A stretch of DNA of 42,778 nucleotides from a virus, in IMG/VR virus record IMGVR_UViG_3300032251_000004, positions 1 through 42,778 of that record, one strand, 5' to 3'. This document shows positions 4,338-39,599 of this stretch, in pieces (position 1 is the first letter of the stretch; every line of letters begins with the position of its first letter). Both the position numbers and the translations under genes were made by a program. The notes beneath the pieces are model-generated. The model was not told where the DNA came from and searched no databases. It saw only the letters and a list, made by a program, of their open reading frames with translations.

Positions 4338-6099
4338 TAAAGTACTTCACATTTCTGATGTAGCCTGTGATTCTTTGGAACAGGTCAAGTTCTTTCCCAC
4401 AAACAGGACAGTTGTCTTCACGTCCTTCAATGTACCCATGGTCGGGACAAATTCTGTTCACTGGACTAATGGACAAATAAGGTAGTCCATGACTTTCACA
4501 CGCATGTTTTACAATTGCTTTCGCTTGGTCACCACTGATTGCACCGTCCATGTAAAGATGAACGACTGTCCCACCTGTGAACTGTTGTTGAAGTTCATCT
4601 TGGTGTGCAAGTGTATCAACTATGCTGGTTACTTCCTGAACAGGTATGTGACAGCTGTTAGTGTAGTAAGGTGCATCTGTTGTTCCTTGGTATGCTGGAA
4701 GTGAAAAACCATCATCACCGAAGGTTTCAACATCCTTTTGTGCCAGTCTGTATGCTGTGCTTTCAGCTGGTGTTGCTTCGTAGTTGTAAAGGTGTCCAGT
4801 TTCTTGCTGGAACTCAACCAACTTTTCACGGATGTGATTTGAAACTTCTACAGCAAACTCTTTCGCTCTTCTATCTGTGATTTCTAAATTAAACAGGTTT
4901 TCACACATTTCATTCAAGCCAACAATTCCAATGGTGCTGAAGTGATTGTCAAGTGTTCCAACATATGTGTTGAATGCTGGGACAGCGTTGTTGTCAATGA
5001 TATTCTTTTGAAGCCATTCACGTTTGATTTCCAGTGAATCCTTCGCAAGTTCTAACACTTCATCTAACAAGGGATAGAATGCTTCTCTAAGTCCAGTGTG
5101 ACCGAACATGTTTGCACTTTTACGTTGTTTTAATAGTGTTCTAATTCCTAACTGTGGTAAGTTAACCGTTACAACACCAATTGAACCTGTTGAATCACCC
5201 GACCCAAACAATCCACCGTTACGCTTCTTTAACTCTGTAAGGTCTAAACGTAAACGACAGCACATGGAACGTGCATCTTCAGGGTTCATGTCACTGTTGA
5301 TGAAGTTTGCAAAGTATGGATAACCGAACTTTCCAGCCATTTCAAAGATTGCTTGATTGTTTGGATGATTCCAGTCAAAACCTTTGTAAATGTTGTATGT
5401 TGGTATTGGGTAAGCAAATGGTTTTCCGATTGCATCACCTTGAAGCATAACTTCAGCAAATGCCTTATTGAACATGTCCATTTCTTTCTGACAATCACCA
5501 TATTTCAGTTCAAGGATTTCACCACCCATTGCAACGTGTTGTTCACGAAGGTCTGAAGGTGCAAAAAGGTCAAGTGTAATGTTACTGAATGCTGGTTCTG
5601 CTCCACCTCTGCTGTTGCTGTTAATGCTGTAGATGAAGTTCTGAAGTGATTGCAACACTTGGTCATAGTTCAGACCATCAACTTTGATAAACGGTGCTAA
5701 TAACGTATCAACTGAACTGAATGCAACAGCACCCATGATTTCATTTTGAAATACAGTTGTTAAGTTTGCTAACTGATTTAAAACACTGTCAAAGTGCTTC
5801 GCTGGTGCTGATGTTGGGATGTTTGGAATGCCTTTGACACCCATTGCAATGATTGACTGTAAGCTGTAACCACAGCAATACAATGTAAGACCCCCAAGGT
5901 CATGAATGTGCATTGCACCTTTTCTGTAAGCATCTGTAATTGCTTCAGGGTAAACTTCTCTTAACCAGTAATCTTTTGAAACCTCTGAATCCACATGTTT
6001 CATTAATCCACCGTATGAATACGGGCTGTTACTGTTTTCTTTCACTCTCCAAGAATCTTGGTTTAGGTACTCGTTGACAACTTCTTTTGAACTTCTCAT
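4288..6099 (-). CDS. nrdD: Class III (anaerobic) ribonucleoside-triphosphate reductase
   Basis: 603 aa glycyl-radical enzyme reducing NTPs to dNTPs without oxygen. Seen: substrate-site region with ARSMCCRLRLDL, a C-terminal metal site (Cys551, His554, Cys564, Cys567; the second ligand is His rather than the usual Cys), and the glycyl-radical loop FQRITGYI with Gly579 near the C-terminus. Cellular enzymes are usually over 700 aa because they start with an ATP-cone. This one begins directly with the catalytic barrel region, so it probably lacks dATP feedback control. Ribosome site AAGGAG precedes ATG 6099. Overlaps nrdG. Confidence 0.95.
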   Translation of the reverse strand: MRSSKEVVNEYLNQDSWRVKENSNSPYSYGGLMKHVDSEVSKDYWLREVYPEAITDAYRKGAMHIHDLGGLTLYCCGYSLQSIIAMGVKGIPNIPTSAPAKHFDSVLNQLANLTTVFQNEIMGAVAFSSVDTLLAPFIKVDGLNYDQVLQSLQNFIYSINSNSRGGAEPAFSNITLDLFAPSDLREQHVAMGGEILELKYGDCQKEMDMFNKAFAEVMLQGDAIGKPFAYPIPTYNIYKGFDWNHPNNQAIFEMAGKFGYPYFANFINSDMNPEDARSMCCRLRLDLTELKKRNGGLFGSGDSTGSIGVVTVNLPQLGIRTLLKQRKSANMFGHTGLREAFYPLLDEVLELAKDSLEIKREWLQKNIIDNNAVPAFNTYVGTLDNHFSTIGIVGLNEMCENLFNLEITDRRAKEFAVEVSNHIREKLVEFQQETGHLYNYEATPAESTAYRLAQKDVETFGDDGFSLPAYQGTTDAPYYTNSCHIPVQEVTSIVDTLAHQDELQQQFTGGTVVHLYMDGAISGDQAKAIVKHACESHGLPYLSISPVNRICPDHGYIEGREDNCPVCGKELDLFQRITGYIRNVKYFNDGKKAEFFDRNQYKS

Positions 6100-6790: not shown

Positions 6791-6836
6791 TGTTGTTTCT
6801 CCTTTTTGTCTGTGTTGTTTTTGTTTTTCTTGGTTA

Positions 6837-6871
6837 CACTACTTAATAACCGAGTGTTATCCCATTTGTGA
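6837..6871 (-). promoter_or_regulatory. Phage-specific promoter M2
   Basis: Leftward TCACAAA, 13 nt, GGTTATTAAGTAGTG. Drives the unit starting at 6790. The spacer is identical to that of M3 (9441-9475). Confidence 0.75.
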
Positions 6872-6880
6872 CAAAAAGGT

Positions 6881-7390
6881 CTAAACTTTTAAAATCTTTT
6901 TTTGCAAACCGTACGCAATCCCTACTGCCACAGCGTCTGACACGTCATCAGTTTCAAAGAAATAATCCTTTTGTGGTTCAATTAAAAACGTTCTGACAGC
7001 CTCTTCAACCTCTTCTTTTGAGGCTTTACCATTTCCAGTGACTAACTTCTTCACACTGGTTGGGCTGATTTCTGCAAATGGTAGCTGGTCACAACCGTTC
7101 TTATAGATGACTAAGTCTGAAACACCGACCACCCTGAACAATGCCTGTGTGATTGCTGGGAATCGACTGAAGCCCTTTTCCCTGACTATTGCTTGAATCT
7201 GCCCGTCATGACCTTTTAACAACTTATTTAAGCCTGTTTCAATCTGTCCTAAACGGTAACCTATCCCCATTTTGGCGTTCTTCTTATTGTTAATGAACAG
7301 TGTTTCTTCAATCTCAACCCTGTCCTTTGTAATGTGCATGATTGCAAATGCTGACCCAGTCAATGACAGGTCACACGATAATATTTTCAA
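6881..7390 (-). CDS. RuvC-like Holliday-junction resolvase
   Basis: 169 aa RNase H-fold endonuclease. Acidic residues at the expected places: Asp7 in SCDLSLTG, Glu71 in VREKGF, and the C-terminal FETDDVSDAVAVG (Asp149, Asp152). The segment SPTSVKKLVTGNGKASKEEV is a classic RuvC core signature. I use the TTG start at 7390 because AAAGGGGGAAACAA precedes it and translation then begins with MKILSCDLS; the upstream open frame runs through a terminator hairpin and is not credible. Likely resolves replication and recombination branches before packaging. Confidence 0.88.
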   Translation of the reverse strand: MKILSCDLSLTGSAFAIMHITKDRVEIEETLFINNKKNAKMGIGYRLGQIETGLNKLLKGHDGQIQAIVREKGFSRFPAITQALFRVVGVSDLVIYKNGCDQLPFAEISPTSVKKLVTGNGKASKEEVEEAVRTFLIEPQKDYFFETDDVSDAVAVGIAYGLQKKILKV

Positions 7391-9382: not shown

Positions 9383-9440
9383 ACTTTTGTTCTCCTTTTC
9401 GATTGTTTTATTTTTTGCTTTTGAAGGTCTTTCATGCCTT

Positions 9441-9475
9441 CACTACTTAATAACCGAGTGTTATCCCATTTGTGA
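9441..9475 (-). promoter_or_regulatory. Phage-specific promoter M3
   Basis: Leftward TCACAAA, 13 nt, GGTTATTAAGTAGTG. TCACAAA overlaps the last codons of the sigma-like gene and the SSB ATG follows about 60 nt later. Confidence 0.75.
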
Positions 9476-10129
9476 CCATTCTGTGTAAAAAACTTTGAAT
9501 TTATCTTTAATTCTTTGAACTTTCTTTCTTGTTGACGAATCATACTTTTCAATGCCCAGTAATTCACATATAGCTTTCATGTCATCCGTCTTGTTTGCCC
9601 CACCGTGACACTTAATGATTTCAACAGCCTCTTCTCCACCTTTTTTGAAGGTCTTGCTGAATGCTTCCAGTGCCTCTTCAAACTCTTCTGAATAATCGGT
9701 CATCCCAGTTTCAGGTTTTGCTTCAAGTGTGTCTTTGTAACACCCTTCGTCAATATCAGATGACACTTGAACATCAAGGCTGTATGCGTTCACGTTTGAT
9801 TGCTGTTCAAACCCTGAATATCTTCTGAATTCTTTTGAAAACCCGTTGTAAAGGTTACTAAAGTAGTACGCTTCAAAATTGTCATTCAAATCAAGGTCAA
9901 ACAAAGTTATTAATGTGATTAAACGTTCACCAAGTGCTGAAGCAACTAAGTCTGTTGAATCAAACGGAAGGTTTAAATCATTTTTGGCTGACATGTATTT
10001 CTTTGCCATTCCAATTGTTCTTCCCTCTAATATCTGAAACAGCTCTTTGAACTCTGCTTCTGCCACTGTGAACCCTTTTGCTTTGATTGCCTTAACTAAT
10101 ACTGTTGCTCTGTTCATTCTCTTTTCCAT
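9461..10129 (-). CDS. Sigma-70-like transcription factor (candidate)
   Basis: 222 aa. Residues about 57-103 resemble sigma region 2: STDLVASALGERLITL, then FDLD, FEAYYFSNL and SKEFRRYSG, matching the DL..eg...L..a...FD......F..Y.......i...R pattern. Residues about 150-215 form a second helical domain ending TRKKVQRIKDKFK, as expected of region 4. Start at ATG 10129 is fixed by AAAGGAGAAACAACA; in-frame sequence further upstream lies in the leader. It has its own host-type promoter (10297-10325), so it could be made early and then direct polymerase to the six M-type promoters, one of which overlaps its own 3' end. An anti-sigma role cannot be excluded. Confidence 0.65.
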   Translation of the reverse strand: MEKRMNRATVLVKAIKAKGFTVAEAEFKELFQILEGRTIGMAKKYMSAKNDLNLPFDSTDLVASALGERLITLITLFDLDLNDNFEAYYFSNLYNGFSKEFRRYSGFEQQSNVNAYSLDVQVSSDIDEGCYKDTLEAKPETGMTDYSEEFEEALEAFSKTFKKGGEEAVEIIKCHGGANKTDDMKAICELLGIEKYDSSTRKKVQRIKDKFKVFYTEWSQMG

Positions 10130-14564: not shown

Positions 14565-14591
14565 TTTACGTGCATAAAAACTTTACATGTA

Positions 14592-14626
14592 CACTACTTA
14601 ATAACCGTGCAAGACATCATTTGTGA
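14592..14626 (-). promoter_or_regulatory. Phage-specific promoter M4
   Basis: Leftward TCACAAA, 13 nt, GGTTATTAAGTAGTG; heads the replication operon starting with the initiator at 14476. Confidence 0.75.
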
Positions 14627-14750
14627 CATTTCTACGGTAAAAACTTTAAAAACTTCTGTTAGGTACATTGACACTGTGGTGCATTACACTGGTAATCCCT
14701 TGTCGAACAGCTAATGTTAACCGTTTATTGTCAGTGGTTAACCATTAAAG

Positions 14751-15276: not shown

Positions 15277-15431
15277 GCTGAAAACAGACTTTCAACTGTC
15301 GATTTTAATTTTTTTAACTTTTAATTGGACTTTGACACCCCATTTGGCTGTGAATTTGCCCGAATAACAAAGTTTCAGCCTGAAGTTGACACATAACACC
15401 TTAACTGTCTTAAACTGTCTTAAAAGGGCAA

Positions 15432-15460
15432 TAAAAAAGACCCACCCGTCAAGGTAGGTC
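15432..15460 (-). terminator. Rho-independent terminator
   Basis: Stem GACCTACC with GGGTGGGTC and six T on the minus strand; stops the early transcript before the origin region. Confidence 0.85.
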
Positions 15461-15472
15461 AATTACTGGTTA

Positions 15473-16107: not shown

Positions 16108-16154
16108 GTTGTTGTTCTCCTTTTCGTGTGTGGGTGTGTGTTGCTGTTAAATAC

Positions 16155-16183
16155 ATAATACAACAGTTTCATTTGTGTGTCAA
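16155..16183 (-). promoter_or_regulatory. Host-type promoter E2
   Basis: TTGACA, 17 nt, TATTAT on the minus strand. Shares about 50 bp with E3, E4 and E7. A TGTGTGAACACA palindrome lies 27 bp upstream of the -35 (16210-16221). Confidence 0.8.
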
Positions 16184-16230
16184 CTACTTTTTGAAACTTT
16201 CTTAAACTTTGTGTGAACACAGATGAAGAC

Positions 16231-17063: not shown

Positions 17064-17123
17064 TGTGTTGTCCTCTGTCTTTCGTGTTTGGTTGTTGTTG
17101 CTGTGTCCCTTGCTGTTGAGACT

Positions 17124-17152
17124 ATTGTATAACAGTTTCAATTGTGTGTCAA
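17124..17152 (-). promoter_or_regulatory. Host-type promoter E3
   Basis: TTGACA, 17 nt, TACAAT on the minus strand; an exact 14-bp dyad lies about 28 bp upstream of the -35. Confidence 0.85.
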
Positions 17153-17180
17153 CTGTTTTATGAAACTTTCTTAAACTTTC

Positions 17181-18596: not shown

Positions 18597-18650
18597 TGTG
18601 TTGTTCTCCTTTGAATTAAGTTTGTTGTTGTTGTTGTTGCTGTTGAGACT

Positions 18651-18679
18651 ATTGTATAACAGTTCCAGTTGTGTGTCAA
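18651..18679 (-). promoter_or_regulatory. Host-type promoter E4
   Basis: TTGACA, 17 nt, TACAAT on the minus strand; nearly identical to E3 and E7 across about 55 bp including the leader. Confidence 0.85.
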
Positions 18680-18706
18680 CTACTTTTTGAAACTTTTTTG
18701 AACAGT

Positions 18707-22241: not shown

Positions 22242-22256
22242 TTAAAAGTCCCCCTT

Positions 22257-22291
22257 CACTACTTAATAACCAAGCACGTCACCATTTGTGA
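22257..22291 (-). promoter_or_regulatory. Phage-specific promoter M5
   Basis: Leftward TCACAAA, 13 nt, GGTTATTAAGTAGTG, followed by AAGGGGGA and the fibre ATG. Only copy inside the structural region. Confidence 0.75.
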
Positions 22292-22298
22292 CCAGTTT

Positions 22299-24002
22299 CT
22301 ACCAAGTTTTATAATCATTTACATGAATCTGTACTTCATCAAAGTTCGTCTTCTCTCTGATGTCAGTTATTGTGTGTGTACACAGTTCATAATTTTCACC
22401 AGCAAAGATTTTAATTGTTTGCCACACACCCACACATTCATTTTTCTGTGCAATAAAAACAGTGTAGTGTGTTTCTTCTGCTGGTGTTGTATGTGTCGCT
22501 AACACTTCACCAATTAAACTTCCGTTAACGTCATAGACTCTCAACAGTTTTGCCCTTTGACTTATTGGGTAGGTTGGACAGGCTTCAGGTGTTCCCACTT
22601 TGACACCCGTTCCGACCTTACAAACCATCATGGGATTTGGTCGTTCAGATGCTTCCCAGCTGTGAACATAATTTGTCGGTAAGATAACGTAATCTTCAGC
22701 TGATGCTTCAATAGCTGAATCAACTTCCACTGGTGTGAATGCTTTTTCCCATGACTTGTGCACGAATCCTTTTACAAGTGTCACAGTGAAAATAATTAAT
22801 GGGTACTGCTCTTTGATTGCAACTTCCTGAACTAGATAATTTTCATCAACATTCATTCCTTCACTTGGGATGTTTACAACGATAACGTCACCAGCTGTGA
22901 AGCCTGTTTCAAGCGTTTGAAACTTGATACTTGAATTATCCTTGCTGTACTTCTTCAGCTTACTGTCAGCCCCAGCAATGACTTCAGACAGGTCAGTTGT
23001 GTTTGCCACTGTGTCAACAGTTTCAACAATCCCTGTGGATGTTTCCGAATCACCCAGTGAAACAATACTTGCATCATTTTGTGAAATAATCACCGTGTCA
23101 AAATAACCTTGATACGTGATGTCAATGACTGTCCCAGCAATCGGTGTGTTTGAAATTGAGTTGAATGATACGATTTGTGAACCACTTGACCAAAACCATT
23201 TAATACTTGAATTGGCATTGTCCACACCGTTGATTCCAAGTAATGATTCAGCAACAGGAACACCATTGACTTTGATTGTCGGTTTAAATGCAATCGGGTA
23301 ATTAACTTTGAATGATGTTTGTTCACCGTCAGCAATTGTTGTGTCAGTTCTCATATTGGTGACCCCTTGACCACCTTTAGTGATTTGACGGTTTCTGAAG
23401 AGGTTAGAATCACTTTTAATTTTCAAACTTCCATTAAGGATGATTCCTTCATCAAGTGTCTTTCCAACTGGTCTTTCACTCAACTTCTTAAACCAAAGTA
23501 AACGGTCTTTGTCAATCCACCAGTCACAGCCTGAACGTTCTGCTAACACGTCAAGTGCAAGGTCAATTCTTTTCCAGTCAATAATGTGGGATGTCAGTAA
23601 GATGTCTTCTGCCCCATCAATTGATTCATCCGTGTAGGTGATACCTTCAGAAGCAAGTTTCTTCGTGTGGATGTCCTGAAGAACTTCTTTGATTGTTTTG
23701 TTTTCGTAAGCCCCAGCAAAAATGAGTTTGTCAGCTAGATAATGATTGTCGATACAGGTGATACTGTGGAAACGGTCCTTGCTCTCACTCTTCTCAACTA
23801 GCACGTCAACAAATCCTGTGAACAGTACTTCTGAACCGTCAGTGATTTCAACAGCCTGTCTTTTCTTGAAACGGACATCAGCTTCAACATCCGTAACAAG
23901 AACAAACGAAGCTGTTGACCGTTCATTCACTTTTTCTTTAATGCTTAATGCGTTCTCAATGCTGTTGTATCCAGTCCCATTGATTTTGATTGAAGTTGAC
24001 AA
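22299..24002 (-). CDS. Baseplate / tail hub protein
   Basis: 567 aa. Starts with TTG at 24002 (MSTSIKINGTGYNSIENALS) after AAAGGGGGTG. N-terminal 200 residues (VEITDGSEVLFTGFVD, then SITCIDNHYLADKLIFAGAY) have the pattern of gp27/Tal-type hub domains: two barrels binding the tail tube. The C-terminal 150 residues contain several Cys and Trp and may be a carbohydrate-binding part. It directly follows the tape measure with no separate Dit gene, so it may combine distal-tail and hub roles. Confidence 0.75.
   Translation of the reverse strand: MSTSIKINGTGYNSIENALSIKEKVNERSTASFVLVTDVEADVRFKKRQAVEITDGSEVLFTGFVDVLVEKSESKDRFHSITCIDNHYLADKLIFAGAYENKTIKEVLQDIHTKKLASEGITYTDESIDGAEDILLTSHIIDWKRIDLALDVLAERSGCDWWIDKDRLLWFKKLSERPVGKTLDEGIILNGSLKIKSDSNLFRNRQITKGGQGVTNMRTDTTIADGEQTSFKVNYPIAFKPTIKVNGVPVAESLLGINGVDNANSSIKWFWSSGSQIVSFNSISNTPIAGTVIDITYQGYFDTVIISQNDASIVSLGDSETSTGIVETVDTVANTTDLSEVIAGADSKLKKYSKDNSSIKFQTLETGFTAGDVIVVNIPSEGMNVDENYLVQEVAIKEQYPLIIFTVTLVKGFVHKSWEKAFTPVEVDSAIEASAEDYVILPTNYVHSWEASERPNPMMVCKVGTGVKVGTPEACPTYPISQRAKLLRVYDVNGSLIGEVLATHTTPAEETHYTVFIAQKNECVGVWQTIKIFAGENYELCTHTITDIREKTNFDEVQIHVNDYKTW
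22371..22384. promoter_or_regulatory. Dispersed dyad variant
   Basis: TGTGTGTGTACACA near the 3' end of the hub gene; arms exact, spacer different. May be chance. Confidence 0.3.
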
Positions 24003-28590: not shown

Positions 28591-29403
28591 TTAGACTGTA
28601 GCCTTCACAGTCATGATTCCGACTTTGTTTCCGTCAAGGATGTGTGCTACATAATGACGGTCTGCTGTGATTACAGTCGTTTTCTTTAAGATGTCACGGT
28701 CAGTTTCAACAGCAACTTCTTTCTTTAACACGATTTGTAATCCACCAACTTTTAACATTGGCACTTTACCAGCTGTGATTCTGTTAGAAACCACGATTTG
28801 CACACCGTACACTTGACCCACATGACCAGTTAAGAACGCTTCACCGTTTGCAACTGTCGTGAATGCAATGTTCTTTCTGATAACGTTGTACTGCTTTGGT
28901 GTGATTAACGCAAATACGCCTTCAAAGTCTTCACCGTATAATGCAACAGCACCGTCAGCTAACTTGTCAGGTGAAATTTCTTCTGTGCCACCGTTTGAAC
29001 CATCAAAAGTGTTTTCTGATGCTTCAACTGCTGTGATACAGTCCTTTTCAACTTTTGAAGCCATTGCAACAGCAAGTTGTCTTTCAGCTTCTGCAAGTGG
29101 ATTTCCAAAGGATGCCCCTCTTGCTTCATCAGTGATTTCCACACCTTTGAAGGCTTTCTTAACTTTTGCTTTTACAGTTGTAGCTGTTAATAAATCTAAC
29201 TCACCAGCTGTGTTTTCTGCTAAGTCAACAGCATCACCAATGTATGAATATTGTGGTACAGAAATTTCATCACCAGCGTTCCCCTGTAATTCTGTGTTGA
29301 TGATTGCTAATGGTGCGATTCTGATGTTGTCAATCATCTTTTGTTCTAAGATTGCTCCAAGTACTTCAGGTACAATCAAGTTTGATTTTACAATTGTTGC
29401 CAT
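28591..29403 (-). CDS. Major capsid protein (HK97 fold)
   Basis: 270 aa. Begins MATIVKSNLIVPEVLGAILE; KMIDNIRIAPLAIINTELQG and FKGVEITDEARGASFGNPLA, followed later by VFALITPKQYNVIRKN and RDILKKTTVITADRHYVAHI, are the layout of Gram-positive HK97-like capsid proteins without a long N-terminal delta domain; scaffolding is supplied by the separate gene upstream. GGGGGTAACAAATT precedes ATG. Confidence 0.92.
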   Translation of the reverse strand: MATIVKSNLIVPEVLGAILEQKMIDNIRIAPLAIINTELQGNAGDEISVPQYSYIGDAVDLAENTAGELDLLTATTVKAKVKKAFKGVEITDEARGASFGNPLAEAERQLAVAMASKVEKDCITAVEASENTFDGSNGGTEEISPDKLADGAVALYGEDFEGVFALITPKQYNVIRKNIAFTTVANGEAFLTGHVGQVYGVQIVVSNRITAGKVPMLKVGGLQIVLKKEVAVETDRDILKKTTVITADRHYVAHILDGNKVGIMTVKATV

Positions 29404-29433
29404 AATTTGTTACCCCCTAGTTTTTTGTGGTAA

Positions 29434-30060
29434 CTAACCCTTCATGATTTGTTCAAAAAGTACTGGGTTGGCTTCATAAAACGCATTACGTTTGTCATAA
29501 TCCATGTTAACTAAATCACGCTTTGTGATTCCCCCTGTTTCAACTTTTGAACCGTTCTGTGGGTCAGTTCCTGTTGTTTTTAATCGTTCCTTAACTTGTC
29601 CATTTAGAATTCTTTCAAACTCTGCTGAAAACTCATTAATTTTGTGTCTTGTCGCTTCCATGGAATCCGTCACCATCATGTCTGCAAATGTTGCTGGTAA
29701 TCCACGTTCAGCTAATTCTTGTGATGCTGTTGCTCGAATGCCTTCACGAACCTTTTCTGATTCCACTCTGCTAAGTCTTTCAGTCAGCTCTCTAACTTGT
29801 TTTTCTGCTGGACTTTCTGCTGGGTGAATTTCATTGATTCTTTCATTGACGATTTTGTCAAGGTTGTTTTGTCTCCACGTTTCAAGACCCTTCGTAAAGT
29901 TTTTGTCTAATCTAGGTTGTAAAACTTTCTTGCCTTCGTCTGTGTTCAGGTATGCATCAACTGCATCATAGTTGATAAAAGAATTTGCAAAGTCTTTTAC
30001 TTCAGGTGTTTCTGCGTTCGCTTCAAAAAAGCTTTGAACGTCTTGTAATGTAATATCCAT
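29434..30060 (-). CDS. Capsid scaffolding protein (DUF4355-like)
   Basis: 208 aa. Start ATG 30060 is fixed by AAAAGGAGAGTTACAC. Long charged helical protein with coiled-coil region (EKQVRELTERLSRVESEKVR) and a conserved C-terminal segment ending NMDYDKRNAFYEANPVLFEQ, as in DUF4355 scaffolds. First gene of the leftward structural operon, behind late-promoter copy L1. Confidence 0.88.
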   Translation of the reverse strand: MDITLQDVQSFFEANAETPEVKDFANSFINYDAVDAYLNTDEGKKVLQPRLDKNFTKGLETWRQNNLDKIVNERINEIHPAESPAEKQVRELTERLSRVESEKVREGIRATASQELAERGLPATFADMMVTDSMEATRHKINEFSAEFERILNGQVKERLKTTGTDPQNGSKVETGGITKRDLVNMDYDKRNAFYEANPVLFEQIMKG

Positions 30061-30091
30061 GTGTAACTCTCCTTTTGACCTTCTGTATGTT

Positions 30092-30105
30092 TGTGTTTGC
30101 ACACA
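30092..30105. promoter_or_regulatory. Dispersed 14-bp dyad (exact copy)
   Basis: TGTGTTTGCACACA in the leader between L1 and the scaffold gene, so downstream of the presumed transcription start. Confidence 0.65.
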
Positions 30106-30138
30106 CCCATTGTGAAGTTCGTTTTTGTAAGAGGTATT

Positions 30139-30175
30139 AACCCCTTCACCTTAATAAGCCATGTCATACGTTTTT
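30139..30175 (-). promoter_or_regulatory. Late promoter candidate L1 (leftward)
   Basis: 37-bp element read leftward: AAAAACGTATGACATGGC, TTATTAA, G, GTGAAGGGGTT. Identical to L2 except one base. About 80 bp before the scaffold start. Confidence 0.7.
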
Positions 30176-30236
30176 GCCCCTTTTTTGCCCCATTTTATAA
30201 AAGTTTTTTTCTGTCCGTTGCTGAAGCACACCTTTA

Positions 30237-30303
30237 ACTGTTCTTTACTGTTGTTATTACTGTATTGACGGTTCTTTTACTGTTAGTACTGTTTGTTTAC
30301 TGT
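30237..30303 (+). repeat. Phased ACTGT array upstream of the regulator gene
   Basis: ACTGT starts at 30237, 30247, 30259, 30279, 30288 and 30299, with one helical turn skipped near 30269 (degenerate GACGGT). Same core as the array upstream of the initiator. Confidence 0.65.
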
Positions 30304-30325
30304 TTAATGTGCATAATTTCTTTAC
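30298..30325 (+). repeat. 28-bp block shared with 14537-14564
   Basis: Second copy of the block ending ATAATTTCTTTAC; a related GTGTACAAATTCTTTAC unit follows 21 bp on. Lies just upstream of promoter M6. Confidence 0.7.
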
Positions 30326-30357
30326 ACTGGTGTACAAATTCTTTACATGGAATAAAG

Positions 30358-30392
30358 TCACAAACACCCCTGTGGTCGGTTATTAAGTAGTG
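30358..30392 (+). promoter_or_regulatory. Phage-specific promoter M6
   Basis: Rightward TCACAAA, 13 nt, GGTTATTAAGTAGTG. Only plus-strand copy; reads into the regulator candidate. Confidence 0.75.
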
Positions 30393-30433
30393 TAAGGACA
30401 CACGTTCTTAACACTAACTACAGGGGGAACACC

Positions 30434-31168
30434 ATGAAATACAACAGAACAGAAATACAACATTTTGAAGAATTAAATGTCATCTTTGGTGGTGAAATAT
30501 ACATTGACGGTGAACACCCATTTTTTGTTGATGACAGAATGATGGATGAAGATTTTGCAAACAGTAACAAGCACGTATACAGGGACGGGGAAAGAACAAC
30601 AAGAAATGAACCCCCAGCTTCCACGACTGATAAACTGGGTAACTACCTTTTGAACCGTCACCAGTTCGATTATTGGATGTCAAACATTCCTGAATCAAAT
30701 AAGGACTTTGTGAATTTCATTTTGAAGAACTGGGAAACATTACTGACAGAAAAACAACAGATATTTTTGACAGATGTGTTGAACGGGAATGAGAAGGATT
30801 ATGACAGACGTTACCGTCACATCTTCAGGACTAGAATTCAAAACAGATTAAAAAAAGCGTACCTTGGAAAAGGTGGTCAAGACATTCCAGCTTACATGGT
30901 TGAACAGTACAGAAACAGATTAAATACTGTGAAGCAATTTGAAGCTGTGTCAAACGACAACGTGGGCTTCTCTGCTCTACTGGCAAAGAAACTTGATAAT
31001 GACTGGGTCAATGATGTTGTTTACAGCAAAATGAAAAAGAATTCACGTCAAGCAATTGTTGACTTCAAGCTGGGCAAATCACCAAGAATTCCAGCATTTG
31101 CACTTTATGAATTTTATGACAATGTGATGGATGAAAAAGATTTCTTAAATGGCTTGGATTTAACGTAA
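30434..31168 (+). CDS. Candidate late-gene regulator between the two late promoters
   Basis: 244 aa; AGGGGGAACACC before ATG. I recognise no named family. Seen: acidic N-terminal third, then a helical basic core (LLTEKQQIFLTDVLNGN, RRYRHIFRTRIQNRLKKAYL) whose LTEKQQ...RI..RL layout resembles sigma region 4 or ArpU-like regulators. It is expressed from M6, stands alone, and is flanked by outward-pointing copies of the 37-bp late element. That context suggests it activates the late operons. Alternatives: terminase-associated factor or anti-repressor. Confidence 0.55.
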   Translation: MKYNRTEIQHFEELNVIFGGEIYIDGEHPFFVDDRMMDEDFANSNKHVYRDGERTTRNEPPASTTDKLGNYLLNRHQFDYWMSNIPESNKDFVNFILKNWETLLTEKQQIFLTDVLNGNEKDYDRRYRHIFRTRIQNRLKKAYLGKGGQDIPAYMVEQYRNRLNTVKQFEAVSNDNVGFSALLAKKLDNDWVNDVVYSKMKKNSRQAIVDFKLGKSPRIPAFALYEFYDNVMDEKDFLNGLDLT

Positions 31169-31203
31169 AAACGTATGACATGGCTTATTAAAGTGAAGGG
31201 GTT
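31167..31203 (+). promoter_or_regulatory. Late promoter candidate L2 (rightward)
   Basis: Same 37-bp element as L1, on the plus strand, overlapping the stop codon of the regulator gene and about 90 bp upstream of terS. Confidence 0.7.
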
Positions 31204-31290
31204 TAACTGTTTGAACCTGACCATCCACTTTGATTACTGTCATGGACATCACAGAACACCCCTTCAAATTTTAAAAAGGGGGAAACTGTA

Positions 31291-31713
31291 ATGGACGAAG
31301 AAATTAAATTTGATTTATCGGTGCAAGAAATGACTTTTGCAATGGAATACTTCACCACACACAATGCGACACAGTCTTACATGAAGGCTTTTGGTTCATC
31401 TTATAACGTGTCAAACACGGAAGGGCATAAGCTTAAACGTAAGCCACACATTAAGGCGTACATTGAATACCTTGCAAAAGAAACAACCAATGACTTAATC
31501 ATGACTGCTGAAGAAGTTCTAATTGAACTTTCTGCAATGGCAAAAGGTCTTGATGAAGAACTTCCAAAACACCAAAAAATCTACAGCAAGGACAAAGTTA
31601 AAGCACTTGAATTAATGGCAAAACATCACACATTATTGACTGACGTTCTGAAGTCTGAAGTTGAACAACGTGTTGTTATTGTTGATGACATCATGGAAGT
31701 GGAAGGTGAATAA
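31291..31713 (+). CDS. terS: Terminase small subunit
   Basis: 140 aa. LSVQEMTFAMEYFTTHNATQ then SYMKAFGSS, and KPHIKAYIEYL are the Terminase_2 DNA-binding helix-turn-helix (normally LT.kQ..F...Y....N.t.A...AGYS); MTAEEVLIELSAMAKG follows as the usual second domain. It recognises pac/cos DNA and feeds TerL. AAAAGGGGGAAACTGTA precedes ATG. Confidence 0.92.
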   Translation: MDEEIKFDLSVQEMTFAMEYFTTHNATQSYMKAFGSSYNVSNTEGHKLKRKPHIKAYIEYLAKETTNDLIMTAEEVLIELSAMAKGLDEELPKHQKIYSKDKVKALELMAKHHTLLTDVLKSEVEQRVVIVDDIMEVEGE

Positions 31714-31716
31714 TAC

Positions 31717-32988
31717 ATGACACCAGCTTTCAAACTTTCTGACAAAATAGGCAAGAATTACAATGACTGGTGGCTGTCAAAGAAACGTTACACAGCTGTC
31801 AAGGGGGGTCGTGGTTCTAAGAAGTCAGTAACAACAGCTTTATGGCTGATATACAACATCATGAAACACCCTGATTCAAACGCTCTAGTTGTCAGGAAGT
31901 TTGGAAACACTCACCGTGATTCTACTTTTGCACAACTTAAATGGGCAATACACCACTTAGGTGCTGAACAATACTGGCGTACAACAGTTTCACCAATGGA
32001 ACTTGTTTACATGCCAACAGGACAGAAGATAATTTTCAGGGGATTGGATGACGCAACAAAGATAACATCAATCACAGTTGAAGTCGGCTTCATGTGTTGG
32101 TGCTGGATTGAAGAGGCATTTGAACTTACAAATGAAATGGAATTCAACAAGCTGGACATGTCGTTCAGGGGGAAACTTCCACCACATTTGTTCTTCAGAT
32201 TCTTAATAACATTCAACCCATGGTCACCAAAACACTGGGTGAAGAAACGATTCTTTGACCCGTATGAAAACGGTGACACCAAGAACATTTTCTGTAAAAC
32301 AACCAACTACATGCACAACGAATTTCTTTCTGATGATGACAGGGCACTGTTTGAAGAAATGAAAATCAAACGACCAAAAAGATATATTGTTGAAGGGCTG
32401 GGAAACTGGGGAATCAGTGATGGTCTTGTTTACGAAAACTGGCGTGTTGAAGAATTTGACTATAAGGAACTGGCTTCAAATCCTGACTTTACTGTCATTC
32501 ACGGTCTTGACTTTGGTTATGTTAATTCATCAACTGGATTCATTGGTGCATTACTGAATAAGAAAACTAAAACAATTCACATCTTTGAAGAACACTATGC
32601 AACTGGAATGATGAACAATCAAATTGCTGACATGATAATTGAAAAAGGAAGACGAAAAGAAACCATCATTGCTGACAGTGCTGAACCTAAGTCCATTGAT
32701 GAAATCAGAAGACATGGAATTCACGGTCTGAAGAAATCATTCAAAGGTAAGGACAGCATCCTGAATGGCATCAGCTATATTCAAGAATTTGACTTGATTG
32801 TGCATCCTGATTGTCCGAACACAATTATTGAACTTCAGAACTACCGTTGGGATGAAAAAGACGGTCAACTGCTTAACAAACCAATTAAGGATTATGACCA
32901 CATTCTTGATGCTCTTCGCTACGCTGTACAGATTGTCAGAAAACCGAAGAAAACACCACCAAACATTAAATCAATTTTAGGAATTTAG
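31717..32988 (+). CDS. terL: Terminase large subunit
   Basis: 423 aa packaging motor and nuclease of PBSX/SPP1 type. ATPase: Walker A GGRGSKKS (residues about 30-37), Walker B with WIEEAFE, coupling motif FNPWSP. Nuclease: GLDFGYVN (first Asp), IIADSAEPKSI, and DHILDALRYAV with the last Asp. Preceded by GGAAGGTGA inside the terS end. PBSX/SPP1-type motors usually package headful from a pac site, consistent with a circularly permuted genome. Confidence 0.95.
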   Translation: MTPAFKLSDKIGKNYNDWWLSKKRYTAVKGGRGSKKSVTTALWLIYNIMKHPDSNALVVRKFGNTHRDSTFAQLKWAIHHLGAEQYWRTTVSPMELVYMPTGQKIIFRGLDDATKITSITVEVGFMCWCWIEEAFELTNEMEFNKLDMSFRGKLPPHLFFRFLITFNPWSPKHWVKKRFFDPYENGDTKNIFCKTTNYMHNEFLSDDDRALFEEMKIKRPKRYIVEGLGNWGISDGLVYENWRVEEFDYKELASNPDFTVIHGLDFGYVNSSTGFIGALLNKKTKTIHIFEEHYATGMMNNQIADMIIEKGRRKETIIADSAEPKSIDEIRRHGIHGLKKSFKGKDSILNGISYIQEFDLIVHPDCPNTIIELQNYRWDEKDGQLLNKPIKDYDHILDALRYAVQIVRKPKKTPPNIKSILGI

Positions 32989-32998
32989 GGGGTAACAA

Positions 32999-34390
32999 AT
33001 GGAAATACTTAACACACAATTAGGACTGTTACACAACGTCCCCCACTTTGTGACTAATGAGACAGAAATCACTTCATCAATGGTGGGTGATTTCATCTTC
33101 CGTCACAGAACTTTTCAGGGACGTTACACACTGTTGTCAAATTATTACATGGGCAAACATGCAATTCTTAACAGGACAATGGGCATTGAAAAACCAAACA
33201 ACAAGACTGTAGAAAATTTCGCTGAATTTATAACAGACATGAAGGCTGGTTACTTCATGGGGAAACCAATTTCATACAAAATGAAAGGGAAAAAACTGAA
33301 CGAAGAACTTCAGGTGATTCTTGATAACAATGATGAACAGGACGTGAACAGTGACCATGCAATTTGGGCAAGTATCTACGGTCATTCATTTGAATTGCTG
33401 TGGTTGAACACAGATGGTGAAGTTAGATTCAAACCAGTTCGACCAACTGAAATGATAATGGTTTATGGAACTGACATTGATGAAACCCCAGTCTGTGCAA
33501 TCCGTTATTTTACTGTAGCACTTGACGGAACAACCACTGACACTTTGACAATAGCTGAAGTTTACACAAAAGATTCAATCACGTATTACGAAGGTGAAGA
33601 TGAATCACGTTTACGCTTCATCAAAGAAATACCACACCTTTTTAACGCTGTTCCTGTGGTTGAATTTAAGAACAACAATGAAAAGCTGGGTGACTTTGAA
33701 AATGTCATCAGTATGATTGACGCTTATGAACTTGTGACCTCTGATTCAATCAACGAAGTCCAGTACTTTAATGATGCTTACTTAGTGTTATACAACATGC
33801 TTGAAACTGACAATGATGACATAGCCAACATGAAAAACAACCGTGTAATCTCCTTGGATGAAAACGGAAAAGCTGAATGGTTGACTAAGAACATCAATGA
33901 CACCCATGTTGAAAACATTTTGAACAGGCTGAAGAATGACATTCACAAATTTAGCAAGACACCGTCACTGACTGATGAAAAGTTTGCTTCAAATCTTTCA
34001 GGTGTTGCAATCAGGTTCAAACTGTGGGGACTGGAACAAGACACAGGGAACAAGGAACGCAAGTTCAAAAAAGGTCTTCAAAAAAGATTCAAGTTAATTT
34101 CAGGAATCAAAGGAATTGAAACTGGAAAACCATTCAACTTCCGTGACATTAAAATGACCTTTATGAGAAACATTCCTTCCAACCTTCTTGAACAGATTCA
34201 AACAGTGTCAACACTTAATGGAATTGTGTCACTTGAAACACTACTTGCACAATTACCATTCGTTGAAAATGTTGGTGAAGAACTTGAAAAGATTGAAAAA
34301 GAACTGGAAGCCCAAGCAACTGCAACTGGCTTTGAACCACTTCCAACTGATGTGGATGATGAAGACCCAGTAGCAACTAAAACTGAATAG
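32999..34390 (+). CDS. Portal protein (SPP1 gp6-like)
   Basis: 463 aa. YYMGKHAILNR and NKTVENFAEFITDMKAGYFM then GKPISY are characteristic of SPP1-type portals, as is LSGVAIRFKLWGLEQDT near residue 330-347. Acidic C-terminal tail. Forms the dodecameric ring through which DNA enters and leaves. GGGGGTAACAA precedes ATG. A GGGG-GAAA-CCC hairpin follows the stop (about 34397-34415), perhaps moderating expression of the next gene. Confidence 0.93.
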   Translation: MEILNTQLGLLHNVPHFVTNETEITSSMVGDFIFRHRTFQGRYTLLSNYYMGKHAILNRTMGIEKPNNKTVENFAEFITDMKAGYFMGKPISYKMKGKKLNEELQVILDNNDEQDVNSDHAIWASIYGHSFELLWLNTDGEVRFKPVRPTEMIMVYGTDIDETPVCAIRYFTVALDGTTTDTLTIAEVYTKDSITYYEGEDESRLRFIKEIPHLFNAVPVVEFKNNNEKLGDFENVISMIDAYELVTSDSINEVQYFNDAYLVLYNMLETDNDDIANMKNNRVISLDENGKAEWLTKNINDTHVENILNRLKNDIHKFSKTPSLTDEKFASNLSGVAIRFKLWGLEQDTGNKERKFKKGLQKRFKLISGIKGIETGKPFNFRDIKMTFMRNIPSNLLEQIQTVSTLNGIVSLETLLAQLPFVENVGEELEKIEKELEAQATATGFEPLPTDVDDEDPVATKTE

Positions 34391-34438
34391 AACTGTGGAC
34401 GGGGGAAACCCTGTCCCATTTCTTTTATACAGAAAGGA

Positions 34439-34452
34439 TGTGTGCAAACACA
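34439..34452. promoter_or_regulatory. Dispersed 14-bp dyad (exact copy) over the MuF gene start
   Basis: TGTGTGCAAACACA overlaps the GTG start and lies between ribosome site AAAGGA and the downstream ATG of the MuF gene. Confidence 0.6.
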
Positions 34453-36346
34453 GATGACAAAATTTAAACGACCGACCCACAATGAAGACTACTGGGACGC
34501 AAGGGCTGTGTGGGTTGAAAAGAACGCAATGAAGAACGTTGACAAAATAAACAAGACCATCCAAGACGGTTACAAGGATGTATTAAAAGACATTGAAAAG
34601 GACATTGCTTCATTCATCACAAAGAATTCAACGGTGCTTGACTTGAACAAACCTGTTTCATACCTTCAATTCAAGGATGAAATGGAATACTACTGGGGAC
34701 AGTACAACAAGTTTATGGCTAGTGGTGACTTTGGGGATGAAATTTCAGCCATGCGAATGAAACGAAGAATTGACAGTCTAAACGTCAGACGTAACAGAAC
34801 ACGTTTAGAAGTCTTTAAAACTGAGATACAAGCAAAGTTAGACATGCAAACACTTAAAGCTTCAGGGGCAATGTCAGGGGCTTTAAAAGGGGTCTATACA
34901 GATTCACACAGTCGGTCAATGTTTACAACTGCCCGTGGTACTGGTTTCGGATTCCTTTACAACTCACCAACAGGGGAAATGATTGAAAAAGCACTAACTT
35001 TTCCATGGTCACCTGACGGGTCACTGTGGTCTGAAAACATTTGGGACTATGCTGAACAACAAGCTGAACAGTTCACGAAGGCTGTTAGACGTACAATTGC
35101 TTCAGACATTATTGCACAGGGGAAAAACCCTTCAACCGTAGCAAAGAACATTGTCGGTTTTGGAAACCCTAAACTGTCAAAGTCAACAATCCGTCACAAC
35201 AGTGCAAGACTTCTGTACACTGAATCAACTCACGTCATTGAAGAGGCAAAAGCAGACGTTTCAGAACTGTGGGGCTTCAAGGAATACCGATTCAGTGCCA
35301 TTCTTGACGGTGCAACTTCACGTATTTGTAAAAGCTGGGACGGTGAAATCTGTGAATACAAGGAAAGACAGGCTGGAATGAACTTTCCACCTATGCACCC
35401 ATGGTGTCGTTCACTGGCTGTTGCTGTTGTTCCTGATGATTTAGACCTTGATTCAATGGCTGTGTTCAAGCCTGTTGAATTACCTGACACAATGACGTAT
35501 AATCAGTTTAAGAGGTGGCAAGACACGGGGGAAATCCCGAAGGCTTTAAAGGTTGCAAAAGAAAAGATGTTCAAAGATGCAAAGACCATCAAAGAAGCCA
35601 ATGAATATGCAATGAAAGAACTTGGTGTCCCACTGGCAAACTATAAAGGGCATGATGTCCGAACAGCTAACGAATGGAACAGGGGTCTTCAAGACAACTT
35701 TGAGCGTTTCCCTGAACTAAAGAACAGGTTTGGTTTTGTTGGTGACTGTAGGGAACGTAACAAGGTAATTTTTCCATTATGGGAAGAAGAACTTCGTGAA
35801 CATTACGCTGGAAGCTTCACAGGTTTTGGGGCTGAAGAAGCAATTGAACGAACAGTCAAAAAACAAATGGCAAAATTCAAGCGAAGGTTTTCAGTTTCTA
35901 AGGACACAATGGCTCAATCATTTTCACCGACTACAGGGGTACTAAAACCCACAGCTGGAATAACTGTTAATCGTGACCATGGAAAAGATTTTGTGGCATT
36001 CACACAGACACATGTTGATGGTGTAGCATCCAAGTTTCACCCTGAAGGTGCTGTAACTATTCGTGCATCACTTGACCATGAAATAGGACACCAACTTGAT
36101 GACATGCTGGGCATTGGAAAGATTAAAGAAATCCAAGAACTGTATGACAGCCGAACAGCCAAAGAACTGACAAACGACCTGTCAACGTATTCACATAGAC
36201 ATGGTAACAGCAACCGTTATTCAGAAATGATTGCTGAAGGCTGGTCAGAATACACGAACAATCCGAACCCACGTGAAATGGCAAGGGTAATCGGTGAAAC
36301 AATTGAATTTGAATATGACAAAAAATTTGGGAAGGTGACAAAATGA
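34442..36346 (+). CDS. MuF-type minor head protein fused to a zinc metallopeptidase-like domain
   Basis: 634 aa. Residues about 1-330 are an SPP1 gp7/MuF head protein, ending with the signature NFPPMHPWCRSLAV near 316-328. The C-terminal 230 residues are extra: SLDHEIGHQLDDM holds a zincin motif HEIGH (His546, Glu547, His550) and EMIAEGWSEY near 595-605 offers the third ligand, a Glu. MuF proteins are known to carry C-terminal toxin or enzyme domains delivered with the DNA. Start is GTG 34442 or ATG 34454; spacing from AAAGGA is poor for both. Confidence 0.88.
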   Translation: MQTQMTKFKRPTHNEDYWDARAVWVEKNAMKNVDKINKTIQDGYKDVLKDIEKDIASFITKNSTVLDLNKPVSYLQFKDEMEYYWGQYNKFMASGDFGDEISAMRMKRRIDSLNVRRNRTRLEVFKTEIQAKLDMQTLKASGAMSGALKGVYTDSHSRSMFTTARGTGFGFLYNSPTGEMIEKALTFPWSPDGSLWSENIWDYAEQQAEQFTKAVRRTIASDIIAQGKNPSTVAKNIVGFGNPKLSKSTIRHNSARLLYTESTHVIEEAKADVSELWGFKEYRFSAILDGATSRICKSWDGEICEYKERQAGMNFPPMHPWCRSLAVAVVPDDLDLDSMAVFKPVELPDTMTYNQFKRWQDTGEIPKALKVAKEKMFKDAKTIKEANEYAMKELGVPLANYKGHDVRTANEWNRGLQDNFERFPELKNRFGFVGDCRERNKVIFPLWEEELREHYAGSFTGFGAEEAIERTVKKQMAKFKRRFSVSKDTMAQSFSPTTGVLKPTAGITVNRDHGKDFVAFTQTHVDGVASKFHPEGAVTIRASLDHEIGHQLDDMLGIGKIKEIQELYDSRTAKELTNDLSTYSHRHGNSNRYSEMIAEGWSEYTNNPNPREMARVIGETIEFEYDKKFGKVTK

Positions 36347-36503: not shown

Positions 36504-36534
36504 GACCTACCTTCAACGGTGGGTCTATTTTTTT
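36504..36534 (+). terminator. Rho-independent terminator of the rightward operon
   Basis: GACCTACC, loop TTCAAC, GGTGGGTC, then TATTTTTTT on the plus strand. Confidence 0.9.
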
Positions 36535-36537
36535 GCA

Positions 36538-36569
36538 TTAAAAAAGGACTGCATTTCTGCAATCCCTTG
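36538..36569 (-). terminator. Leftward terminator beyond attP
   Basis: GGATTGCA-GAAA-TGCAGTCC hairpin then TTTTT on the minus strand; stops integrase-side transcription in the free phage. It lies on the other side of attP, so it is separated from the integrase in a prophage. Confidence 0.85.
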
Positions 36570-36597
36570 GTATCAGCTACTTTGGACAAATGATGTG

Positions 36598-36660
36598 TTA
36601 GTTACCCCAACAGGTTTGACATTGATAACAGAACATCTGAGGTGACTTCATTTCAACCAT
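36598..36660 (-). CDS. 20-codon hcp-like leader frame within attP
   Basis: AGAAGGAAATAAAA precedes an ATG opening a 20-codon frame, MVEMKSPQMFCYQCQTCWGN. MFCYQCQ is the invariant start of hybrid-cluster protein (Hcp), whose first Cys residues bind an Fe-S cluster; here the similarity stops after CQ. As a free peptide it has no likely function. Most likely it is a replacement 5' end: after integration into host hcp, this ribosome site and start would be joined to the remaining hcp codons. Confidence 0.65.
   Translation of the reverse strand: MVEMKSPQMFCYQCQTCWGN
36600..36647. other. Candidate phage attachment site (attP)
   Basis: 48-bp segment about 130 bp beyond the integrase gene. It has imperfect dyad symmetry (about 15 of 24 positions, best at the outer arms AGTTACC and GGTGACT) around a central TG at 36623-36624, the size and shape expected of a serine-integrase attP. 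The centre falls inside the hcp-like codons. Core position is inference. Confidence 0.6.
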
Positions 36661-36749
36661 TTTTATTTCCTTCTTTCGTGAGTTTGATTTATTGTTAACC
36701 TTAACACCTGAATGTGTTTTCCACGTGTCATTAAAAGAATAATAACACC

Positions 36750-36782
36750 CAAAGAAAAAGAAGTCTGTAGCTGTGGCTACAA
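36750..36782 (-). terminator. Weak hairpin at the integrase stop codon
   Basis: TGTAGC-CACA-GCTACA followed by GACTTCTTTTTC; the T-tract is displaced, so read-through toward attP is plausible. Confidence 0.45.
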
Positions 36783-38336
36783 ACTCCCTAATTCAATGAT
36801 TTTTTGTGTTTCAGGTGTGAAGACCACTTCTGTGATTTCACCATCAGTCACGTTGATTCTTTCAAAGTATTTGCAAAGTAGCACGTTCTTTGTTGCTTCG
36901 TCACCTTGCCTGAAATTAAGTTTGAAGTTGACCTGTTCCATAACATTGACCATTCTTTCAACGGTTGAATTCATGTATTGATTGTCAACAACAGCTTCTT
37001 CTTTTTCTTCCCCCAGTTTTTCAATTGCCTTGTTAATAGCTTCCAGCTGTTTCTGAAGTTGTTTCTGCTTCTCTACCAGTTTAGCACTAACACCTATTTC
37101 AAGCTGTAGGTCAATCAAGTTGTCCAGCTGGGTGTCAATTTGTTTTCTACGGTGTGACAGTTCTTTGAATTCTGCGTCAGCTTCATGTTTCCTGAATGTT
37201 GTTTTGTCTTCCTTCAGCTGGTTAGCAACTTTCACAAATGCTGGGAAAACTTCACCGTATAAAATGTCATTGATGTGTTTTTCAATAGTGGCGTGAAGAG
37301 GTGCTTTGTTGTTGCACATGTCCCCCGACTGGTAATCCAGCTTTGAACATTTTCGCATGTAATACTTTTCAGAAGGCTTCTTTGTGAATGACATCTTTGC
37401 ACCACATTTTCCACACCTGATTAACCCAGTAAAACGCCACGACCTTTTCTGTTCATTAGAATTGTTTCTACCTGTGGACTTCAACATCTTCTGAACCCTG
37501 TTCCATGTGTCCATATCAATGATGGCTTCATGTGCATCTTCGTAAACAATCCAGTCTTCACGTGGTCTGTCTTTAACGTGCTTTGTACCGTGTTCATCCT
37601 TCCACCAAATCTTTTTACCGTAGATTTGCCAACCAATGTATTTTTCATTGTGGAGCATTGACCAAACAGCTTTCCCCTTGAATTCCCCTTTTCTTCCAGT
37701 GTAACCAAGCTGATTCAATTTGATTGCAATTTGATGGGTGTTAACACCGTCAAGGTACATGTCAAAAATCCTTTTAATTAGGAATGATTGGTCATTAGGG
37801 TCAAGCTTCTTTGTTTCCCTGTTGTAATCGTATCCTAACGGTGGCTCACCCAAATGGTTACCATAAAGGGCAACAGCTTTCATTCTTCCTGATGCTAGAA
37901 CAATCTTAGACTGTGTTTGATACAGGTCTGACATGATTCCTTCAAGCTTCGTTCCCAGCGTGTCATTATAGTCAATTACTTTTCCCCTGTGGACCTCTAT
38001 CAACAACAGGTCATTGAATTTAAATTCTTCCATCAACCGTTCAAGGTCTGTGACCTTACGTGTCAAACGGTCAAGCCTGACCACAATCAAACACTTAACT
38101 TTTTTATTTTTAATGTCAGCCCTTAACTGATTCATTTCTTTACGGTTCATTGTTTCAGAACTTCCAACTTCTTCTCTAATGTCTAACGGTAGTCGAACAC
38201 TGTCAGCGAACTCCTGAAGCTGGTCCTGATGCTTCTTCAGTCCTTCACCATCAATGTCACGGGATTTTCTACTGTATGCAACCAGTTCAGTGACCTTGTG
38301 CTTCTTTAATGCCTCTTCAATTGTAATTGTGTTCAT
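36777..38336 (-). CDS. int: Large serine integrase
   Basis: 519 aa. Catalytic domain: VAYSRKSRD with nucleophile Ser25, RLDRLTRKVTDLERLM with active-site arginines. Recombinase domain: LGEPPLGYDYNRETKKLDPN, then NQLGYTGRKGEF and NEKYIGWQIYG. Zinc ribbon: RCGKCGAKM with a second Cys pair (KCSKLDYQSGDMCNN). A long coiled coil (residues about 395-470) would control directionality. Own promoter E6. GGAAGGGGAAACA precedes ATG. Phages of this kind integrate without host IHF and excise with a small directionality factor, not identified here. Confidence 0.95.
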   Translation of the reverse strand: MNTITIEEALKKHKVTELVAYSRKSRDIDGEGLKKHQDQLQEFADSVRLPLDIREEVGSSETMNRKEMNQLRADIKNKKVKCLIVVRLDRLTRKVTDLERLMEEFKFNDLLLIEVHRGKVIDYNDTLGTKLEGIMSDLYQTQSKIVLASGRMKAVALYGNHLGEPPLGYDYNRETKKLDPNDQSFLIKRIFDMYLDGVNTHQIAIKLNQLGYTGRKGEFKGKAVWSMLHNEKYIGWQIYGKKIWWKDEHGTKHVKDRPREDWIVYEDAHEAIIDMDTWNRVQKMLKSTGRNNSNEQKRSWRFTGLIRCGKCGAKMSFTKKPSEKYYMRKCSKLDYQSGDMCNNKAPLHATIEKHINDILYGEVFPAFVKVANQLKEDKTTFRKHEADAEFKELSHRRKQIDTQLDNLIDLQLEIGVSAKLVEKQKQLQKQLEAINKAIEKLGEEKEEAVVDNQYMNSTVERMVNVMEQVNFKLNFRQGDEATKNVLLCKYFERINVTDGEITEVVFTPETQKIIELGSL

Positions 38337-38377: not shown

Positions 38378-38407
38378 ATTGTAACACGACATAGGGAAAA
38401 GTGTCAA
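38378..38407 (-). promoter_or_regulatory. Host-type promoter E6 (integrase)
   Basis: TTGACA, 18 nt, TACAAT on the minus strand (17 nt to TTACAA). An exact 14-bp dyad abuts the -35, so binding there would affect integrase expression. Confidence 0.75.
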
Positions 38408-39463: not shown

Positions 39464-39519
39464 TTTGCTTTCCTCTGTCTTTCGTTTGCTGTTATCGTGT
39501 GTCCCTTGCTGTTGAGACT

Positions 39520-39548
39520 ATTGTATAACAGTTTCAATTGTGTGTCAA
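39520..39548 (-). promoter_or_regulatory. Host-type promoter E7
   Basis: TTGACA, 17 nt, TACAAT on the minus strand, same cassette as E3 and E4; exact 14-bp dyad 52 bp upstream. Confidence 0.85.
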
Positions 39549-39599
39549 CTACTTTCTGAAACTTTTTAAAACTTTTATTAAAACAGTTGTGAACTTTCA

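Follow-up and report, generated by a model that had tools for sequence, protein, structure and literature searches.

Why does a phage carry the first seven codons of a bacterial hcp gene close to its gene for a large serine integrase, and what would become of hcp, a gene for a nitric-oxide defence and redox-stress enzyme, in a lysogen? The locus is part of virus record IMGVR_UViG_3300032251_000004, which was analyzed as one window of 42,778 bp with 39.6% GC. The gene polA for DNA polymerase I was split across both ends of the contig, and alignment with a related contig (G898) placed the halves next to each other to within about one codon. The record is thus probably circular and complete, an excised or packaged genome in which an intact attP should be expected. 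Encoded were terminase, portal, minor head protein, scaffold, major head protein, tape measure, and endolysin, plus a primase, a helicase, NrdD, and the integrase. The nearest relative found was IMGVR_UViG_3300039008_000355 (G898; L045/L150/L151), with 60% for the portal, 67.5% for the major head protein, and 43 to 44% for the integrase. The late genes were split (window positions 28591 to 36346), with those for terminase, portal, and minor head protein running rightward and those for scaffold, major head protein, and tail leftward, and the same split was present in the related phage (L045/L151). The class III ribonucleotide reductase NrdD (4288 to 6099) shared 59.5% identity with its counterpart in an Oceanotoga phage, which suggests an anaerobic host. 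The host signals from terminase, portal, SleB, helicase, and NrdD disagree, the terminase pointing to the Bacillus megaterium phage Silence and NrdD to the Oceanotoga phage.

A large serine integrase is a protein of about 450 to 700 aa in which Recombinase and zinc-ribbon domains come after a Resolvase catalytic domain, and the integrase in the window has this composition and length (Table 1). Its domains PF00239, PF07508, and PF13408 scored above the Pfam cut-offs, and it matched a PHROG integrase at 7.8e-74. No close relative was found in viral contigs (IMG/VR), in phage or plasmid records, or in GTDB contigs. The best relatives in these collections reached about 32 to 35% and were rejected as too distant to share att specificity. 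The preliminary description had expected a search of bacterial genomes for this integrase to reveal prophages in hcp; the search yielded neither a close relative nor any prophage with this integrase, be it in hcp or at an unrelated locus. Samples of whole genomes (about 1,180, from three orders, one class, and one family) likewise contained no close integrase and no lysogen, and these samples comprise one genome per species and a small part of the Bacillota, so that a missing lysogen says little. A stronger genome match (L158) was only 27% identical and had no hcp nearby. The related phage G898 carries no hcp motif near its integrase (44%); its loci L045/L150 were also rejected as a source of the second att site, having no clear dyad either.

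Table 1. Features of the att region and the integrase gene, with positions in the 42,778-bp window
Feature	Position	Strand	Evidence
Rightward terminator closing the terminase-portal-minor head operon	36504..36535	+	Scan
Leftward terminator, far side of att	36538..36569	-	Fold -14.6 kcal/mol, z -3.7
20-codon frame MVEMKSPQMFCYQCQTCWGN with upstream AAGGAA	36598..36660	-	Sequence
Imperfect dyad, proposed attP	36600..36647	.	14/24 pairs; best dyad of gap
Match to first seven hcp codons (MFCYQCQ), proposed att core	36616..36636	-	Sequence; Bacillota and IMG/VR searches
Extended -10-like TGTTATTAT, weak promoter candidate, sole one facing att	36739..36747	-	No -35
Intrinsic terminator at int end, between int and att	36758..36789	-	Scan; fold -13.3 kcal/mol, z -3.2
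Large serine integrase, 519 aa	36777..38336	-	Resolvase, Recombinase, zinc-ribbon domains
Likely integrase promoter, TTGACA - 18 - TACAAT, extended -10	38378..38407	-	Sequence reading; inferred

The minus strand from 36636 to 36616 is ATGTTCTGTTATCAATGTCAA and encodes MFCYQCQ. These seven residues had been reported as part of a minus-strand frame of 20 codons, and both the coordinates and the frame were confirmed in the sequence. With up to 3 mismatches allowed, no other copy of the 21-mer was present in the window and none in 100 shuffles. The same search found it in 129 of 398 Bacillota genomes, mostly at hcp start codons, and a reversed control gave about 16 matches. The commonest Bacillota allele of hcp, ATGTTTTGTTATCAATGTCAA, has 1 mismatch to the phage 21-mer. 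Around the center of the dyad listed in Table 1, the phage core and the common alleles were identical in 20 of 21 bases, with an overall range of 18 to 20 of 21, and none of the hcp alleles encountered matched at all 21 positions. In a comparison of 32 hcp genes with the window, identity was at background level immediately 5' of the ATG and fell back to it after codon 7. A degenerate motif, ATGTTYTGYTAYCARTGYSAR, was found in three other contigs of the 2.9 million viral contigs of IMG/VR, each time in a true hcp gene, and no sequence other than hcp matched it in this collection. The variants MFCFQC and MFCNQC in viral contigs returned one phage-borne hcp, the remainder being chance, and the matches to a looser 18-mer were also chance apart from hcp. 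The rarity of the 21-mer in the window and its shuffles, its occurrence at Bacillota hcp starts, its sharp edges, and its uniqueness in IMG/VR indicate together that the match of the phage to hcp is not chance. A lack of nucleotide identity to hcp at 36616 to 36636, which the preliminary description had named as evidence against its proposal, was tested for and did not occur. Two copies of the hcp core, as the sign of attL plus attR, were also searched for; no pair on the same strand of one contig and within a prophage length of each other was present among the matches listed for the 398 Bacillota genomes.

An attP of a serine integrase should appear as an imperfect dyad of about 50 bp around a central dinucleotide, adjoining the integrase gene. 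The 48-bp dyad that had been noticed beside the integrase was indeed present and lies centered in the hcp match, 120 bp from the end of the complete integrase gene at 36777. Its center at 36623/36624 is CA on the minus strand, within the Gln5 codon of hcp, and in the comparison with the 32 hcp genes the similarity ended at codon 7, that is, two codons past the dyad center, as had been claimed. A dyad as good as this one occurred anywhere in the 187-bp gap in 107 of 500 shuffles and is not rare when taken alone; at the exact center it was found in 4 of 2,000 shuffled 48-mers. Serine integrases often need merely a short identical core. The coincidence of the hcp match and the dyad center beside the integrase gene is what should be expected of an attP whose core equals attB. 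It is likely, as judged from the sequence, that the gap holds an attP that shares its core with the 5' end of host hcp.

The frame around this core reads, on the minus strand from 36660 to 36598, ATG GTT GAA ATG AAG TCA CCT CAG ATG TTC TGT TAT CAA TGT CAA ACC TGT TGG GGT AAC TAA, with the ribosome site AAGGAA located 6 nt 5' of the first ATG. A ribosome site with an in-frame ATG was also present in 12% of the shuffles and at 6.6% of all window positions; it is not significant, and a start signal that arises in 7 to 12% of controls is no evidence of selection. When the phage sequence was joined in silico at the CA to hcp of five hosts, an open frame beginning with MVEMKSPQMFCYQCQ continued into hcp (MVEMKSPQ-MFCYQCQ...), and a 12-codon stub (MFCYQCQTCWGN) was left under the native hcp promoter. 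As to the earlier proposal that the phage supplies ribosome site and start codon to hcp, the frame was open in silico with five hosts, and the start signal was within chance. Among the 32 hcp genes, natural starts often had 2 to 4 residues before or within them (MSMFC, MERMFC, and MENKMFC), so that an N-terminal extension may be tolerable, although eight residues exceed anything seen. The restored chimeric hcp frame is a prediction.

The gene hcp was also encountered in other viral contigs. In IMGVR_UViG_2597490289_000004 (G896; L148:9864-12279), hcp tracked a full-length homologue as far as GNYGNA and stopped at 309 aa. This end was about 20 bases from the stop codon of a large serine recombinase gene, followed by a repressor gene and prophage genes, and the other half of hcp was absent from the stretches read. 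This contig appears to represent a different serine-integrase prophage inside hcp at about codon 309, which makes hcp a plausible integration target. Its target gene is the one predicted for the present phage and its recombinase is of the same superfamily, but it differs in the position at about codon 309, in the truncation of hcp, and in its recombinase, which is only about 23% identical to the present integrase. An intact hcp of 528 aa was located in IMGVR_UViG_3300034416_000067 (G894; L146:14957-16543) between ParB/DNA methylase and small terminase genes, where it is carried as phage cargo. At one end of a further phage contig (IMGVR_UViG_3300012158_000029; L014:9578-11149), an amidase gene was directly followed by another intact hcp, which may be cargo or host flank. 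In IMGVR_UViG_2799112568_000001 (G897; L016:4609-11370), two tandem large serine recombinase genes were followed by genes for a Crp-family regulator and a ferredoxin and by hcp, which places the end of a prophage near an hcp operon. A literature search for hcp as a prophage site found nothing on point.

The existence of intact phage-borne hcp genes (G894; L014) needs to be considered in the evaluation of the seven codons, which might be the remnant of a whole cargo hcp that was later deleted. Such a remnant is improbable: no other hcp fragment was present in the window (the best tblastn hits, at an E value of 0.35, were scattered), and the match, which coincides with the dyad beside the integrase, breaks off sharply at either edge of its 21 bp. 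Alternatively, the likeness of the 21-mer to hcp may be accidental, with attP being elsewhere or the target being another gene. A dyad of equal quality in about 20% of the shuffled 187-bp gaps would agree with this explanation, as would the expectation, by our own estimate, of about 0.02 occurrences of a 1-mismatch 21-mer between a 150-bp gap and a 4-Mb genome. The match is, however, in frame with a conserved gene start found in many Bacillota and sits at the dyad center, and IMG/VR contained no accidental copy of the motif, so that an accident is rated as slightly less probable still than a remnant.

The 20-codon frame, with its ribosome site and three cysteines, could also be translated into a micropeptide with a Cys-X2-Cys-X2-Cys metal site that has nothing to do with integration. 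The identity to hcp at the DNA level (18 to 20 of 21 bases), the start signal that is not significant, and the lack of a peptide relative in the related phage all argue against such a peptide, which is the least probable of these explanations and very unlikely.

With an attP at the start of hcp as the preferred explanation, the following course of integration can be proposed. The phage would be temperate, with a host among the Bacillota or other anaerobes, and its attP would lie in the gap from 36570 to 36757. The large serine integrase would recombine this attP with an attB where host hcp begins, the crossover falling on the central CA within codon 5 (Gln). One predicted junction would lead from TCACCTCAGATGTTYTGTTATCA into hcp from codon 6 onward and the other from the sequence upstream of hcp into ATGTCAAACCTGTTGGGGTAAC. 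After integration, only the 12-codon stub would remain under the native hcp promoter, with transcription stopped at 36569 to 36538, and the remainder of hcp would continue in frame from the phage sequence encoding MVEMKSPQ.

The transcription of such a fused hcp depends on the signals around att. The leftward terminator beyond att, already described, proved to be real by its folding energy (Table 1). A terminator that had been overlooked, with a 10-bp stem and a U-rich tail, closes the integrase gene at 36789 to 36758. The rightward terminator has a similar stretch at 15428 to 15464. A sigma-70 scan found no promoter in the gap, nor does the gap hold any of the TTGACA/TATAAT-type promoters of the phage itself. 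These are present on the minus strand in four 78-bp repeats (16133 to 16210, 17102 to 17179, 18629 to 18706, and 39498 to 39575), which are probably coordinately controlled phage promoters. Both strands of the window together contained five extended -10-like sites of the type TGTTATTAT. A second repeat with conserved blocks CACTACTTAATAACC and CATTTGTGAC occurred in five copies (2158 to 2231, 6823 to 6896, 9427 to 9500, 14578 to 14651, and 22243 to 22316) and is possibly another class of promoter or binding site.

The suggestion that transcription from the integrase side could run into hcp was not upheld, with the 36789-to-36758 terminator intervening and no consensus promoter following it. 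Termination of int transcription before att means that a low or phage-set expression of hcp is more likely than read-through, and the more likely effect of lysogeny would be to reduce or rewire hcp, not to feed it. The terminators flanking att would insulate the site, and reduced or phage-set hcp expression would be the default. It is conceivable, and offered here tentatively, that lysogeny moves hcp from its native nitrosative-stress control into a phage-set state with terminators on both sides, so that integration and excision would act as a switch of NO detoxification in an anaerobic host. If the phage does integrate at hcp, this gene would join the short list of genes with a 5' end replaced by a mobile element, and the phage would gain a direct handle on nitrosative-stress defence. 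The locus also adds a new large serine integrase, and the sequence at which its att pair is predicted is conserved across many Bacillota.

To judge what such an exchange could mean, the locus can be compared with known elements. The dusA-specific elements (such as IMEVchUSA3) and the ICE SXT in prfC insert into the 5' end of their target and provide a new in-frame N-terminus, with the junctions and the new promoter proven by experiment (PMC8409611). The phage would likewise enter a conserved gene at its 5' end and is predicted to give it an in-frame N-terminus, but differs in its target hcp, in its large serine integrase, in junctions that are predicted, and in having no clear promoter. The SpyCI chromosomal islands integrate into the 5' end of mutL and block it (PMC3430984, PMC4689407); mutL was rescued from an internal promoter in one strain (PMC3430984), and excision during growth restores mutL, with the phenotype demonstrated (PMC3430984, PMC4689407). 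In both cases a phage-like element would cut a host gene from its promoter, with the fate of the gene set by promoters within the element; target and element are different, however, and restoration and phenotype were demonstrated for mutL while the hcp case is predicted. The HK022 prophage raises torS expression from a phage promoter near att that has no clear -10 or -35 site (PMC6814406), which warns against over-reading the absence of a clear promoter at the present att. As predicted for hcp, integration of HK022 beside a gene of anaerobic respiration alters the transcription of this gene, but HK022 sits beside torS and leaves its start codon in place, whereas that of hcp would be replaced. 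Elements that replace the 5' end of a gene are already known for dusA, prfC, and mutL, to be compared with torS, and hcp is predicted to be a new target gene for them.
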